From NCBI RefSeq assembly GCF_900102615.1, contig NZ_FMYV01000002.1, forward strand, positions 1-64,000: a DNA stretch of 64,000 nt, read 5' to 3'. Origin of the DNA: Geotoga petraea. Its GTDB lineage: Bacteria > Thermotogota > Thermotogae > Petrotogales > Petrotogaceae. Position 1 is the stretch's first letter. Each line of letters begins with the position of its first letter. Below, in pieces: positions 24,616-31,299 of this stretch. The notes below the pieces were generated by a model. The model made no database searches. It was not told where the DNA came from and was given only the letters and a program-made list of their open reading frames with translations. A program made the position numbers and the translations under genes.

Positions 24616-24653
24616 ATAATATAAACAGTTGCAATTGCAACTGTTTATATTAT
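24616..24653. promoter_or_regulatory. Perfect 38-bp palindrome between the DMT exporter and cysE
   Basis: The 19-bp arms ataatataaacagttgcaa / ttgcaactgtttatattat have no unpaired centre. It lies about 47 bp upstream of cysE and 43 bp downstream of the DMT gene stop. It could be a transcription-factor operator for cysE, or a terminator whose folded loop is aatt and whose 3' side is tttatatt. The lack of a clean T-tract makes an operator at least as likely. Confidence 0.5.
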
Positions 24654-25586: not shown

Positions 25587-26645
25587 CTACTTTGAAATTT
25601 TTTGAATCTGAAATATAGCTAATTTCTTACTTTTAAGATCGGAAATTATTAATTTAGATTCTGTTATTTTAAAAAGAAGGTTTTCAGGCATCCTTGTTAA
25701 TATAGATCTCAACTTTCTTATATGAATTTGTACCAAATATTTGTGTTCAGTTTTTATATCAAGTTTCCAAGAAAGATGAGAATCATTTTCTTCTTTGTAA
25801 ATGTAAGAACCGTTAGTACTCAAAACGATGAACGCTACGTTGTTTTTTTTGAAAGAAATATACATTTTGTCCAAGGCTTTTTTAATCTGATCTGATTTGA
25901 TCCTTAATTCCTCTATTATTTTGAATGTTTCAAGTTTTAAAACATCATTGTAGTATTTTTGAGTACATAAGTTTATTATCACGCCAGGAGCTAATAACAC
26001 TAATTTATTTTTTTTAACACCAATCGAAATTTTAGAATCTTTTCTTAATTTTTTTAATGATTTTACCACATGTCTTATGGTTACGTAGGGTATAGATAGA
26101 GAAAAATCTTTTTTTGATTCTGAAAATTCAGATTCTATGTAATAATAATCAGATACATAGCTGAATTTTATCATTTTACTTCTTGTGAATATGTTTATAA
26201 GGTCGTCTTCATTAGCAGATGCTGATACGAAATCAATCTTTTTTATTAAATCGTTGAGGGAATCTATGCTTAAACTATCAAATTCTTTTATTACAGATGG
26301 GACAGAAGACTCTTTCTTAATTTCAGTCGATAAGTTCATCTCCTCAAATGTAAATAGCACGTGATCTTTGTTTATAGCTATTTTTACTATTTCTTCAGAT
26401 TTTTTATTTTTACCCCTGGTTAAGCCTTTTAAATATTGTATAGGTATTATCGCAACACCTTCAAAAGGTAAAAAGTCCCTTGTAAAATTCATCACCATAC
26501 TTCCACAATTGTCAGAAGCATAAATTTTGAGGCCATTATCGTAAAAGAAGTACGCATTTCTTGTGGAAGGTTCTATAGTTCCACAAAAATTATCGAGAAA
26601 TTCAGTTACTTTATTCAAATGTGAAAAAGTGACATAACCTTCCAT
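25587..26645 (-). CDS. Divergent DNA sliding-clamp-like (DnaN-fold) protein coupled to PolC
   Basis: This 352-residue protein matches three consecutive clamp domains in pattern. Domain 1 (1-110) shows NGLKIYASDNCGSMVMNF, then EGVAIIPIQYLKGL, then an EIVKIAI strand. Domain 2 (120-235) shows SLNDLIKKIDFVSASANED, IPYVTIRHVVKSLKKL, ISIGVKKNKLVL. Domain 3 (240-352) shows IKSDQIKKALDKM, IHIRKLRSILTRMPENLLFKI. These follow the order of DnaN domain strands and helices, but sequence identity to standard DnaN is low. The gene starts two bases after the polC stop, with its Shine-Dalgarno inside polC. It may be a second clamp or an accessory clamp for PolC. The ordinary dnaN is not in this window. Confidence 0.65.
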   Translation of the reverse strand: MEGYVTFSHLNKVTEFLDNFCGTIEPSTRNAYFFYDNGLKIYASDNCGSMVMNFTRDFLPFEGVAIIPIQYLKGLTRGKNKKSEEIVKIAINKDHVLFTFEEMNLSTEIKKESSVPSVIKEFDSLSIDSLNDLIKKIDFVSASANEDDLINIFTRSKMIKFSYVSDYYYIESEFSESKKDFSLSIPYVTIRHVVKSLKKLRKDSKISIGVKKNKLVLLAPGVIINLCTQKYYNDVLKLETFKIIEELRIKSDQIKKALDKMYISFKKNNVAFIVLSTNGSYIYKEENDSHLSWKLDIKTEHKYLVQIHIRKLRSILTRMPENLLFKITESKLIISDLKSKKLAIFQIQKISK

Positions 26646-26647
26646 CT

Positions 26648-29600
26648 TTATCCTCCAAATAACGACATTTGATTTTTATCAGGCAATCCATTAAGAATTC
26701 CAAGTTCTTTCAAAACTTCGGTGTTGGATTTATTAACATTTGTTCTCGCTACCAGTTCTTCGATTGATTGAAATTTACCATTTTTCCTATCTTCAATTAT
26801 ACTTTCAGCGGCTTTTTCACCAAGGTTTGGTACTGTTATAAATGGTATCAAAAGACCATTGTTTTGAATTAGAAAGTTTTTTGAATGAGATTTGTATAAA
26901 TCAACATTATAAAATTTGTAACCTCTCAAAATCATTTCATACGCTATTTCCAAAACAGTTCTTTCTCTTTTTAATTTTATGTCTCTTTCACCTTTTATTT
27001 CCATAAGGCGTCTTTTAATAGAATTTTTCCCTTTTAAAATAACTGGCAAATTAAATTCATCTCCTTTAACTGAGAAGTATGTTGCATAAAAAGCCAAAGG
27101 CTTGTGAACTTTGAACCAAGCTATCCTAAATGCCATGCTAACATACGCAGCAGCATGGGCTTTTGGGAATAGGTATGTAATTATTTTACAAGAGTCTAAA
27201 AACCATTTTGGAACATTTAAGTCTTTCATTAGTTTTTCGTCTTCTTCAGATAAACTTTTACCTTTTCTTACCTTTTCCATTATGAAGAAAGACTTTTTAG
27301 GGTCTGCACCTTTATGAATCAAATAGTTCATAATATCGTCTCTACACGAGATAACCTCGTTTAATGTTGCGTCCCCTCTATCTATTATATTTTTAGCATT
27401 TCCTGTCCAAACATTTGTGCCATGAGACAATCCCGATATTCTTACTAATTCTGCAAAAGTACTTGGTTTTGTATCTTCCAACATTCTTCTAACAAAGTTC
27501 GTTCCAAATTCCGGAATACCAAGAGCTCCAACTGTTGTGTCCAATTCAGACTTTAAATCTATTTTCAAAGCTTTTGTGCTTGAAAAAATGGACATGGTTT
27601 CTTTGTCATCCATTGGTATTTTTAATGCATCTATACCAGTTAAATCTTCCAACATCTTTATAAATGTAGGATCGTCATGTCCTAATGCATCAAGTTTTAC
27701 TAAATCATCGTGAATAACGTGATAATCAAAATGCGTTGTTTGAATATCGGATTTTGTGTCGTTAGCAGGATATTGTATAGGGGTGAAATCAAAAACTTCG
27801 AATTCTTTTGGAACAATCATTAATCCACCTGGATGTTGCCCAGTGGTTCTCTTTACGCCAGTTATAGCATTTGCTATTCTTTGTTGCTCACATTGTCTAA
27901 CAAAATCAGTTGTTTCAGCATATTTTCGGGCGTATTCCAAAGCAGTTTTTTCAGCAACAGTCGATATTGTACCTGCTTTAAAAACGTGGTCTTCTCCAAA
28001 CATCTTTTCAACATATTTATGAGCCCTTGATTGGTATTCTCCCGAGAAATTTAAATCGATATCTGGGACTTTGTCCCCTTCAAACCCCATGAAAGTTTCA
28101 AATAATATATCTTGTCCATTTTTTATCATTTTTTCATTACAATCATCGCATATTTTATCGGGCAAATCATAACCAGAACCATATTCTCCTTCAGTAAAAA
28201 ATATTGATTTTTTACATTTTGGGCAAATATAGTGAGGTGGCATTGGATTTACCTCTGTTATTCCCATTAAGTAAGCAACCAAAGAAGATCCTACAGAACC
28301 TCTTGAACCTACAAGATATCCATCTTCATTTGATTTTTTAACTATTCTTTCAGCCATAAGGTATAAGACTGCATAACCATGTTTTATAATTGAATCAAGT
28401 TCTCTTTCAATTCTTTTTTCTATAATTTCTGGTAGTTTTTCACCATATATTTCGTGAGCTTTCTTATAAGTTTTTTCCCTTACTTCGGTATCCGCATTTT
28501 CAATATTAGGTGGATTTAGCTTTTTTTTAAGTGGAACTATATCTTCGATTTTTTCTGCAATGAGATTTGGATTATCTATTACTATTTGTTTTGCAACAGC
28601 TTCATCTTCGAATATTTCCATGGCATTCTTTAACATTTCATCAGTTGTTCTCATATGTCTGTTAGAATAGTACACTTTTTTCTTATCTGCAACTTTTAAG
28701 GCGTGTCTAAACTTCATGTCTTCTTTATCAAGATAATGTGCATTTGACACCATAACAACAGGTTTATCCAACTCTTTTCCAATTTCGTATATAGTGCGAT
28801 ACATTTCTATTATTCTTTCTTTCGATAGATCGTCCCTGGTTTCAACTGTATCAATTGGCATTATTTCGAGGTAATCAAAGAATTTAGCTATTTCTTTTAG
28901 TTCATCTTTTGTTGCTCCTCTTATGAAAGCATCTGATAATTCTCCGTTTTCACACCCCGAACCAATTAGTAGCCCTTCTCTCATTTTTTCTAGTTCACTT
29001 TTTAAAATCCTTGGATGAACATAAAAATATTTTATATGAGCATTTGAAACTAATTTATATGAATTTTTAAGGCCAACTTTATTTTTTATCAATATTGTCA
29101 TATGTTTTGCAAAAATTCTCTTATAATCTATGAATTTTTTTAATTTATCCAAATCAGATAATCTTTTTATTCCTCTGTTAGAAGCCATATCCAGTAATTT
29201 TATAAATACAAGGGCTGTAACATGTGCATCTTCATCAGCCCTATGATGGTTGAAATCACTTAAGCCTAAAGCTTTTACAACTTTATCTAATGAAAATCTT
29301 TTTATAGTTAAAAGAGATTTAGCCATTGAAAGAGTATCAATATAGGTTTGTTCGAAAACCCTGTTGTATAATTTTGAAACCCAAGATCTCAAAAACCTAA
29401 AATCAAATATAGCGTTGTGTGCTACGAGTACAGCTCCTTCTATAAAATCCAAAAATTTAGGTAGTACTTCTTCTATAGGGGGCTTGTCATTCAACATTTC
29501 TTGAGTTATTCCCGTTATTTCAGTTGTTATTTCTGGAATATTTTCTTTAGGTTTTATCAAAGAATGAAATTTATCAATTATTTCACCGTCTTTAACTTTT

Positions 29601-30823
29601 GCTGCTCCAATTTCAATAATTTCATTAATATCTGGTTGAGTACCAGTTGTTTCAAAATCAAAAACCACGTATTCTGTATCTTTTATGCTTTGCTCTCCAT
29701 TTCCGAAAATATTTATAATATCAATATATTCATCTACTACATCACCTTCTAAACCAAAAATCGGTTTAATACCTTCTTTTGTAGCAATATCATAAAATTG
29801 AGGTATGTTTTGAATTGCTCCATGATCTGTAATGGCAACAGCTTTCTGTCCCCATTCTTTAACTCTTTTTATGATATCCTTAACTTCCATTATTCCATCC
29901 ATTTGACTCAAATTTGAATGGCAATGAAGTTCGACTCTCTTTTCTTCTGATTCATCTTTTACAGATAATTCTGGTTTAATTTTTTTTAAGTTAAAAGGTT
30001 TTATTGCAAAATCGTTCATAAAATTATCATAAAACAAAGATCCTTCAGCTATTATATGATCTCCAACTTTGATGTTTTTATGCAGAATTTCGCCTTTATC
30101 GAAGAAGTGTTTTACTACTATAGAATCTTTTTTGTCGGTAATAAAAATAGTGCTAATATTTGACTTTTCATTGTAATCTTTGAAAAATACTTGTCCTTTA
30201 ACGACTAAAATACTCCCTTCAACTGTCGGTACATTATCCAAGTCAATGGGGATTTTTTTAAAGTCTCTTCCAAGAATGACATCACCTTTTTTATTTATAT
30301 TGTTACTATTTTTCTTTTTATCGATTTTCTGATTTTCAGTAGTTTCATAAGTATCAAAGCTCATATAATCATGCCCAAAAGTATCATCAAAATCTGGTTT
30401 CAATGTGTTATCCATTTCTAATAAAAACTCAGCTTTAATTCCACAATGTCTGACTATTAAATCTTGAAGTATGTTTTTTGAGCTTCTCATTTTATTTATA
30501 ACCAATTTAGAATGTGATTTGAATATAAGAACATCGCCTTTCAATTCAGGTAAAAGCAAGCTCAAATAATCGTCTAATTCATGGCCTATGATGATCTTCT
30601 GCCAATTATTGACTATAAATTCAAGGTCATTATCACCAATAGGTTCTATTTCGACGGTTCTTTTAAGATTTCTCATGAAAAACTTTTTCAGTGAAGATTC
30701 TAAACTTTCGTTGAAGTTGTTTTTGATCTTTATCTTTACTGTAGATTCTGTAGTTTCAACTTCTCCATCGATATCGAATGGTACATATCCAATATATTCC
30801 ATAAAATACTCTTTTATAGTCAT
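26648..30823 (-). CDS. polC: DNA polymerase III subunit alpha, PolC type
   Basis: This is a replicative polymerase of about 1391 residues. Domain order is an OB domain, a PHP domain (VELHCHSNLSQMDG near 300) interrupted by a DnaQ-like 3'-5' exonuclease (VVFDFETTGTQPDINEIIEIG near 386), then the C-family polymerase core with the catalytic PDIDLNFSGEYQ near 920, and a helix-hairpin-helix tail. The C-terminus NQMSLFGG contains a QxSLF clamp-binding motif. I chose the ATG at 30823, seven bases after GAGGTG; it shares one base with the ruvC stop. The upstream in-frame extension lies within ruvC. A clamp-like gene follows immediately. Confidence 0.96.
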   Translation of the reverse strand: MTIKEYFMEYIGYVPFDIDGEVETTESTVKIKIKNNFNESLESSLKKFFMRNLKRTVEIEPIGDNDLEFIVNNWQKIIIGHELDDYLSLLLPELKGDVLIFKSHSKLVINKMRSSKNILQDLIVRHCGIKAEFLLEMDNTLKPDFDDTFGHDYMSFDTYETTENQKIDKKKNSNNINKKGDVILGRDFKKIPIDLDNVPTVEGSILVVKGQVFFKDYNEKSNISTIFITDKKDSIVVKHFFDKGEILHKNIKVGDHIIAEGSLFYDNFMNDFAIKPFNLKKIKPELSVKDESEEKRVELHCHSNLSQMDGIMEVKDIIKRVKEWGQKAVAITDHGAIQNIPQFYDIATKEGIKPIFGLEGDVVDEYIDIINIFGNGEQSIKDTEYVVFDFETTGTQPDINEIIEIGAAKVKDGEIIDKFHSLIKPKENIPEITTEITGITQEMLNDKPPIEEVLPKFLDFIEGAVLVAHNAIFDFRFLRSWVSKLYNRVFEQTYIDTLSMAKSLLTIKRFSLDKVVKALGLSDFNHHRADEDAHVTALVFIKLLDMASNRGIKRLSDLDKLKKFIDYKRIFAKHMTILIKNKVGLKNSYKLVSNAHIKYFYVHPRILKSELEKMREGLLIGSGCENGELSDAFIRGATKDELKEIAKFFDYLEIMPIDTVETRDDLSKERIIEMYRTIYEIGKELDKPVVMVSNAHYLDKEDMKFRHALKVADKKKVYYSNRHMRTTDEMLKNAMEIFEDEAVAKQIVIDNPNLIAEKIEDIVPLKKKLNPPNIENADTEVREKTYKKAHEIYGEKLPEIIEKRIERELDSIIKHGYAVLYLMAERIVKKSNEDGYLVGSRGSVGSSLVAYLMGITEVNPMPPHYICPKCKKSIFFTEGEYGSGYDLPDKICDDCNEKMIKNGQDILFETFMGFEGDKVPDIDLNFSGEYQSRAHKYVEKMFGEDHVFKAGTISTVAEKTALEYARKYAETTDFVRQCEQQRIANAITGVKRTTGQHPGGLMIVPKEFEVFDFTPIQYPANDTKSDIQTTHFDYHVIHDDLVKLDALGHDDPTFIKMLEDLTGIDALKIPMDDKETMSIFSSTKALKIDLKSELDTTVGALGIPEFGTNFVRRMLEDTKPSTFAELVRISGLSHGTNVWTGNAKNIIDRGDATLNEVISCRDDIMNYLIHKGADPKKSFFIMEKVRKGKSLSEEDEKLMKDLNVPKWFLDSCKIITYLFPKAHAAAYVSMAFRIAWFKVHKPLAFYATYFSVKGDEFNLPVILKGKNSIKRRLMEIKGERDIKLKRERTVLEIAYEMILRGYKFYNVDLYKSHSKNFLIQNNGLLIPFITVPNLGEKAAESIIEDRKNGKFQSIEELVARTNVNKSNTEVLKELGILNGLPDKNQMSLFGG

Positions 30824-31299
30824 TAAATAACACCTCTGAAATTCCCGTGACAAAAAGCAGCTGCCAATGCATCTGCTGCATCATCAGGGGTGGGATTTTT
30901 TTTCAAGTTCAACAATAACTTTAAAGTTCTGGCAACTTGTCCTTTTTCTGCTCTGCCATAACCAGTTACAGCCTGTTTTATTTGAAACGGGGTATATTCA
31001 TAAATCGGTATTTTGTTTTCAACGAGGGCTACTAATATGACACCTCGGGCTTCACCGACTTGTATCGCTGTAGTTACGTTTCTAAAGAAAAATAAATCTT
31101 CCACGGAAGATTCATCTGGATTGTATTTTTCTATTAATGTTGTTATTTTTTGCTTTATTTCATACAGTCTCAAAGGAAGTTCCTTGTCCTTATCAGTATA
31201 TATTACACCAAAATCAATAGTTTTAAACTTGTTTCCTATTTTATCCAATACTCCATAGCCAATTTTGCCATATCCTGGGTCAATTCCTAATATTCTCAT
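30823..31299 (-). CDS. ruvC: Crossover junction endodeoxyribonuclease RuvC
   Basis: This 158-residue Holliday-junction resolvase has LGIDPGYGKIGYGVLD (catalytic Asp7), SVEDLFFFRN (Glu), and PDDAADALAAAFCHG (C-terminal acidic pair). It is normal length. It is the first gene of the ruvC-polC-clamp-like unit and overlaps polC by one base (TAATG). The ATG at 31299 follows AGGAGTG. Confidence 0.96.
   Translation of the reverse strand: MRILGIDPGYGKIGYGVLDKIGNKFKTIDFGVIYTDKDKELPLRLYEIKQKITTLIEKYNPDESSVEDLFFFRNVTTAIQVGEARGVILVALVENKIPIYEYTPFQIKQAVTGYGRAEKGQVARTLKLLLNLKKNPTPDDAADALAAAFCHGNFRGVI

Follow-up and report, generated by a model that had tools for sequence, protein, structure and literature searches.

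Genomic context of the gene behind polC

The usual account of replication in bacteria involves a single sliding clamp that serves all clients. In the window, the whole 64,000-nucleotide stretch analysed here, the gene directly behind polC raises the question of whether its product, termed clamp2 below, is a second clamp and, if so, whether it serves PolC or other partners. The source genome belongs to the Thermotogota, a deep-branching phylum rich in hyperthermophiles. The locus comprises the following features.

25587..26645, minus strand: clamp2, second clamp-fold protein (P0001), 352 aa, ATG start
26292..26645, minus strand: domain I of clamp2, residues 1-118 (secondary structure of the predicted model, hhalign)
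25923..26291, minus strand: domain II of clamp2, residues 119-241, without the DnaN pocket motif (model and hhalign)
26043..26087, minus strand: helix and flank of domain II, residues 187-201 (YVTIRHVVKSLKKLR) (model, conservation)
25590..25922, minus strand: domain III of clamp2, residues 242-352 (predicted model, hhalign)
26652..26656, minus strand: GGAGG, likely ribosome-binding site of clamp2 (sequence and spacing)
26648..30823, minus strand: polC, PolC-type DNA polymerase III (NF001688 1702 bits, TIGR01405 1580 bits)
30823..31299, minus strand: ruvC, presumably the Holliday junction resolvase, named after its motif IDPGYGxxGYG

The 352-residue frame given in the preliminary description of this locus is real: on the minus strand it runs from the ATG at 26645 to the stop at 25589-25587, and the protein contains all four motifs quoted there, SDNCGSMVMNF and IPIQYLKGL among them, while the plus-strand reading of 25587-26645 is broken by many stops. 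The ruvC, polC and clamp2 genes form a tight run with ruvC first, and in the genomes G001, G002 and G003 a relative occupies its position. The start of polC was listed as the TTG at 30853, which is probably wrong; the better candidate is the ATG at 30823, which the ruvC stop overlaps in the string TAATG. At the other end of polC, the encoded protein terminates in NQMSLFGG* and thus carries the QMSLF motif described before, and the clamp2 ATG follows after two intervening bases, also as described. The GGAGG upstream of clamp2 falls within the last two PolC codons (Gly-Gly), so that translational coupling of clamp2 to polC appears plausible. A transporter-like ORF, as read by eye, begins 11 bases past clamp2 on the same strand. 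The intergenic segment at 24616-24653 of the window holds an inverted repeat of 17 pairs, and none of the other terminator-like stems in the region reaches this length.

Sequence homology to DnaN

Taken as a single sequence, the window protein matches no clamp model of Pfam or NCBIfam, nor does it match a DnaN profile. Among 36 family members, four match PF00712 (best 1.1e-5) and three match TIGR00663 (best 9.8e-6), counting E values up to 1. The relationship becomes clear with the relatives' profile: a profile of 36 diverse members reaches up to 58.3 bits on 19 canonical DnaN ORFs, 18 of them at E below 1e-3, whereas 40 column-shuffled control profiles reach at most 5.3 bits on DnaN ORFs. Profile-profile comparison by hhalign, with 95 clamp2 and 17 DnaN sequences, gives E 3.9e-15 over 341 columns, and searching the clamp2 profile against PDB sequences recovers beta clamps down to E 8.7e-6.

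The comparison also holds domain by domain, each domain of clamp2 pairing best with its DnaN counterpart. Domain I matches DnaN domain I at E 1.5e-8, followed by domain II at 1.4e-7; domain II matches its counterpart at 1e-5 and domain III at 1.9e-8. Some stretches of PDB sequences had paired clamp2 residues 36-165 with DnaN residues 172-308, yet the diagonal domain matrix dismisses a circular permutation or a shift by one domain as the main alignment. Matches of the window protein to the Pfam TrmB and NCBIfam ShyA models (E 0.014) lie below cut-off, are each confined to one member and were set aside. On sequence grounds, clamp2 is thus a homologue of DnaN, detectable with a profile of its relatives and independently of any structure model.

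Predicted structure of clamp2

The best AlphaFold2 model of clamp2 has a pLDDT of 88.2 and a pTM of 0.84, the other four models averaging pLDDT 86.6, 79.9, 68.8 and 60.5. Over its full chain the model repeats the double beta-alpha-beta-beta-beta unit three times, its strands and helices following one another as in a three-domain clamp. In Foldseek searches bacterial beta clamps rank first (6fvl_B, the E. coli clamp, at E 5.6e-19 and TM 0.81), and 527 PDB chains are matched at E up to 0.001; models of viral clamps likewise match the fold. Superposition with VIA, in line with the structural comparison proposed in the preliminary description, finds all three clamp domains, with Z 27.8 and rmsd 3.1 over 345 aligned residues for the DnaN 6dm6_A, and with Z 26.9 and rmsd 3.6 over 343 aligned residues for the T. 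maritima DnaN 1vpk. The model of a second family member is weaker (pLDDT 72.6, pTM 0.56), with 1vpk still its top match (Z 16.7, rmsd 7.6). The alignments behind both models have six rows each, two of which are fragments. As modelled, clamp2 is a member of the beta-clamp fold superfamily with three tandem domains, and the earlier view of a divergent three-domain protein in DnaN order agrees with the predicted fold, the VIA superpositions and the domain-wise hhalign comparison alike.

Clamp2 accompanies an ordinary DnaN in nearly all Thermotogota genomes

The canonical dnaN of the source genome lies apart from clamp2 (G000, C6:22445-23548, minus strand). Clamp2 is therefore a second clamp-fold protein and not the ordinary DnaN, an identity which the preliminary description had left dependent on finding another dnaN. 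It is not a chance ORF either, since a profile search finds clamp2 in 98 of 103 Thermotogota genomes, corresponding to 78 of the 82 good genomes and 36 of the 38 genera. Within the order of the source genome a single-sequence search already recovers a homologue in 37 of 38 genomes. DnaN itself scores above the curated cut-off in 100 of the 103 genomes, and the PolC model is matched in all 103, over the cut-off in 97. G090, apparently the genome of T. maritima, carries clamp2 as well; the gene there follows a putative alaS and is convergent with a putative hslO. Clamp2 is 23% identical between the source genome and G090, DnaN 42%.

The exceptions are few. No profile match to clamp2 was obtained in G040 and G041 (family f5), G086 and G087 (genus g32) and G064, where the wider profile A6 gives weak matches only, those in G040, G064 and G087 falling on the respective dnaN loci. 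As G064 is also devoid of the ligase-like neighbour gene that G065 has, its clamp2 is probably missing through an assembly gap, while the absence in f5 and g32 may be real. Conversely, several searches found no canonical dnaN in two genomes that bear clamp2, G038 (79% complete) and G039 (93%; loci L096 and L073). Missing contigs are the probable reason in both, the more so in G038 as its PolC ends in QISLF. In Marinitoga lauensis clamp2 is interrupted by frame changes (L108:6001-6932; L157), owing to sequencing error or decay, and G023 looks like the same genome. Additional DnaN-like copies were also seen: G083 has two over the cut-off, G048 has a second one below the cut-off within a 502-aa frame, and the second copy in G020 contains two internal stops.

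Outside the phylum, the search extended to plasmids, to phages and viral contigs and, by two narrow pattern scans, to genome contigs; in view of this scope no restriction of clamp2 to Thermotogota is claimed. Neither tblastn against 50,697 phage records nor two pattern scans of viral contigs returned a relative.

Residues kept and lost

Conservation was assessed in 95 distinct full-length clamp2 sequences, after two fragments had been dropped. First, the residues at the presumed DNA channel are strongly conserved. Gly22, Arg191 and Lys195 are invariant, position 192 is histidine in 90 sequences and arginine in five, and Asp45, Cys227, Cys47 and Arg318 are kept in 93, 91, 90 and 90 sequences, respectively; Gly22, Asp45 and Cys47, together with the likewise conserved Glu25, belong to domain I. 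Judging from the orientation of the clamp fold, Arg191, His192, Lys195 and Arg318 would be located on or beside the helices that line the channel, with Arg191 and Lys195 predicted to face the DNA. The six channel helices carry a net positive charge in all 95 proteins, on average +9.3 versus +1.7 in 17 DnaN sequences, and the mean charge of the whole protein is +5.5 in clamp2 versus -19.4 in DnaN.

Next, the peptide-binding pocket of DnaN has no evident equivalent. The TDGxRL-like turn of domain II ([TS]DGxRL) is present in none of the 95 clamp2 sequences, and a wider pocket pattern, found in seven of nine DnaN proteins, has a single clamp2 match, elsewhere in one protein. The C-terminal MP.R is found in all nine DnaN and in no clamp2. 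Asp172, Arg175, Pro241, Pro362 and Arg364 of the T. maritima DnaN, invariant in 17 DnaN sequences, have variable counterparts in clamp2, as mapped by a profile alignment at 11% identity with reference to E. coli residue numbers. Finally, the counterpart of an acidic segment in DnaN domain III, which we assume to be part of the DnaN dimer contact, averages +0.7 in clamp2 versus -4.5 in DnaN, and since it is not acidic a DnaN-like homodimer is not assured.

Two cysteines form a further conserved element. Cys47 and Cys227, the latter in the last strand of domain II, are both present in 89 of the 95 sequences; three have one of them only, and three have neither, all of these from family f11 (L094, L095 and L129). 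In the clamp fold the two residues could come near each other across the boundary of domains I and II, which is suggestive of a disulfide or a metal-binding pair, albeit not a strict one.

Relation of clamp2 to PolC and DnaE

The preliminary description envisaged a second clamp dedicated to PolC, and its two parts fare differently: the second clamp-fold protein stands, given the separate dnaN, while the dedication through QMSLF does not. A role as the processivity factor of PolC, binding the QMSLF tail, has in its favour that in the order of the source genome clamp2 lies directly behind polC in 30 of 38 genomes compared by eye (14 of 21 in family f1 and 16 of 17 in f2). Seven of the exceptions are all of the genus g4, apparently Marinitoga, and G015 was not assessable. 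The two-base gap and the GGAGG inside polC in the window also agree with such a role. In the 60 clamp2 genomes outside this order, however, the adjacency is seen in none; by eye, and with drafts among these genomes, clamp2 and polC were not found within 30 kb on one contig in any of them. In the 32 clamp2 neighbourhoods that were read, the neighbours outside the order vary and give no functional hint. Adjacency to polC is a trait of one order and does not define the clamp2 family, so that dedication to PolC is not supported. Moreover, the pocket residues with which DnaN is equipped are lost in clamp2, canonical DnaN is present nearly throughout, and PolC keeps its QxSLF end in genomes where no clamp2 was found (QISLF in G041, QFSLF in G086). 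In PMC3919608, QLSLF is given as a near-universal motif of PolC. Altogether, a clamp reserved for PolC is very improbable.

The source genome has a second PolC-like polymerase of about 1,000 aa outside the window (L160:2165-5233 on the plus strand; G000:C2, about 266.7-269.7 kb), apparently without the inserted exonuclease, which ends in SQIPLF and adjoins an endonuclease III-like gene. Second PolC matches of a like kind, below the cut-off, occur in several other f1 genomes, and PMC3919608 mentions one extra PolC without exonuclease in Thermotogae.

A division of labour in which DnaN serves PolC while clamp2 serves the second polymerase, DnaE, might leave its mark on the clamp-binding motif of DnaE, which was compared in 29 sequences (L164-L193) from few lineages. 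Both f5 genomes, in which clamp2 was not found, have QPSLF or QSSLF at the motif site of DnaE, and most other lineages keep only xxFG there, as such a division would suggest. Yet G038 (QEALF), G043 (QRTLF) and G035 (QNSIF) combine clamp2 with a near-canonical motif, family f7 has QQLF or QELF, and G086 is without clamp2 and without the motif alike. In addition, a weak clamp-binding motif is described as general for bacterial DnaE3 in PMC3919608. The sequence evidence for a tie between clamp2 and the loss of the DnaE motif is therefore mixed, and a clamp specific to DnaE appears unlikely.

Discussion

The results are best read as describing a protein of the bacterial beta-clamp superfamily that is distinct from DnaN, ancient, and present phylum-wide as its second member. 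As for its function, the most likely reading, to which we assign a probability of roughly 60%, is that of an ancient auxiliary clamp which encircles or otherwise binds DNA and has partners other than the clients with a QLSLF motif. That the channel is kept and the pocket is not argues for a protein that embraces DNA and has different clients. Two clamp2 protomers, or one together with another subunit, would close, or nearly close, a ring around double-stranded DNA, and the more basic channel may hold the DNA tighter than that of DnaN does. Clients would dock on a surface distinct from the QLSLF pocket, the protein presumably acting as an auxiliary clamp in repair, in recombination or for the second polymerase DnaE. 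In the one order with the conserved gene run, clamp2 is probably translated along with PolC, downstream of ruvC, and would thus be supplied together with the replisome.

The explanations considered here overlap and are not mutually exclusive, and two of them concern the assembly of clamp2. A mixed ring of clamp2 and DnaN, with a single peptide pocket per ring as a parallel to the heteromeric archaeal PCNA, would account for the nearly ubiquitous coexistence of the two proteins, for the missing pocket and for the altered charge of the domain III segment, which leaves a homodimer of the DnaN type in question. The unequal divergence of clamp2 and DnaN between the source genome and G090, in contrast, would not be expected of proteins that share an interface, and in the one dnaN neighbourhood that was read, that of the source genome, no co-localisation with clamp2 was noticed; we consider a mixed ring improbable. 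Alternatively, clamp2 could be a clamp-derived DNA-binding or regulatory protein that forms no ring, for instance a monomer lying along DNA or a clamp-loader decoy. Its unusually basic character, the loss of acidic charge, the altered presumed dimer segment and the lost pocket would all suit such a protein. Nevertheless, the phylum as a whole preserves the three domains, their order and length and the channel residues, and a decoy or open protein would have no need of them, which makes this possibility doubtful.

Compared with known systems, the auxiliary clamp proposed here is closest to DnaN (PF00712/PF02767/PF02768, TIGR00663; T. maritima TM0262, 1vpk), with which it shares the length, the three-domain order, the predicted fold over the whole chain and the basic channel helices. 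It differs from DnaN in an identity of about 11%, in the window protein being without a family-model match, in being a separate gene of the same genomes, in the loss of the pocket residues and the C-terminal MP.R, and in being net basic instead of acidic. Phage-encoded DnaN-like processivity factors (phrog_947) match the G090 clamp2 over residues 1-333 at E 3.1e-6; no match exists to the window protein, however, and the distribution of clamp2 is chromosomal and phylum-wide. Subunits of the 9-1-1 checkpoint clamp and of PCNA have two domains each and assemble into trimers, unlike clamp2 with its three domains per chain in the predicted model. The likeness to 9-1-1 and to the heteromeric PCNA of Sulfolobus (PMC9690074) is one of idea only, namely that a diverged clamp exists alongside the replicative one. 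No description of a second clamp in Thermotogota was found in the open-access literature searched, nor by looking up terms in PMC3919608, PMC3290774, PMC12926913, PMC11139829 and PMC9690074, and none of the family libraries searched contains a model naming the clamp2 family. The fold of clamp2 is thus a known one, of which the family forms a divergent and as yet unnamed branch.

For the phylum, a broader picture may be offered tentatively, at somewhat less than an even chance: Thermotogota cells would maintain two sliding-clamp systems, DnaN for the clients that carry the motif and clamp2, with a surface of its own, for tasks in repair or recombination or for the second polymerase, and clamp2 would be the bacterial analogue of 9-1-1 or heteromeric PCNA. 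Were this true, the traffic of clients at the replication fork could be divided between two rings, and clamp2 and DnaN, the latter with a solved structure, would make a tractable pair for learning what clamps need besides a peptide pocket. Clamp2 would then also be a core gene named for the first time with respect to the family libraries searched.
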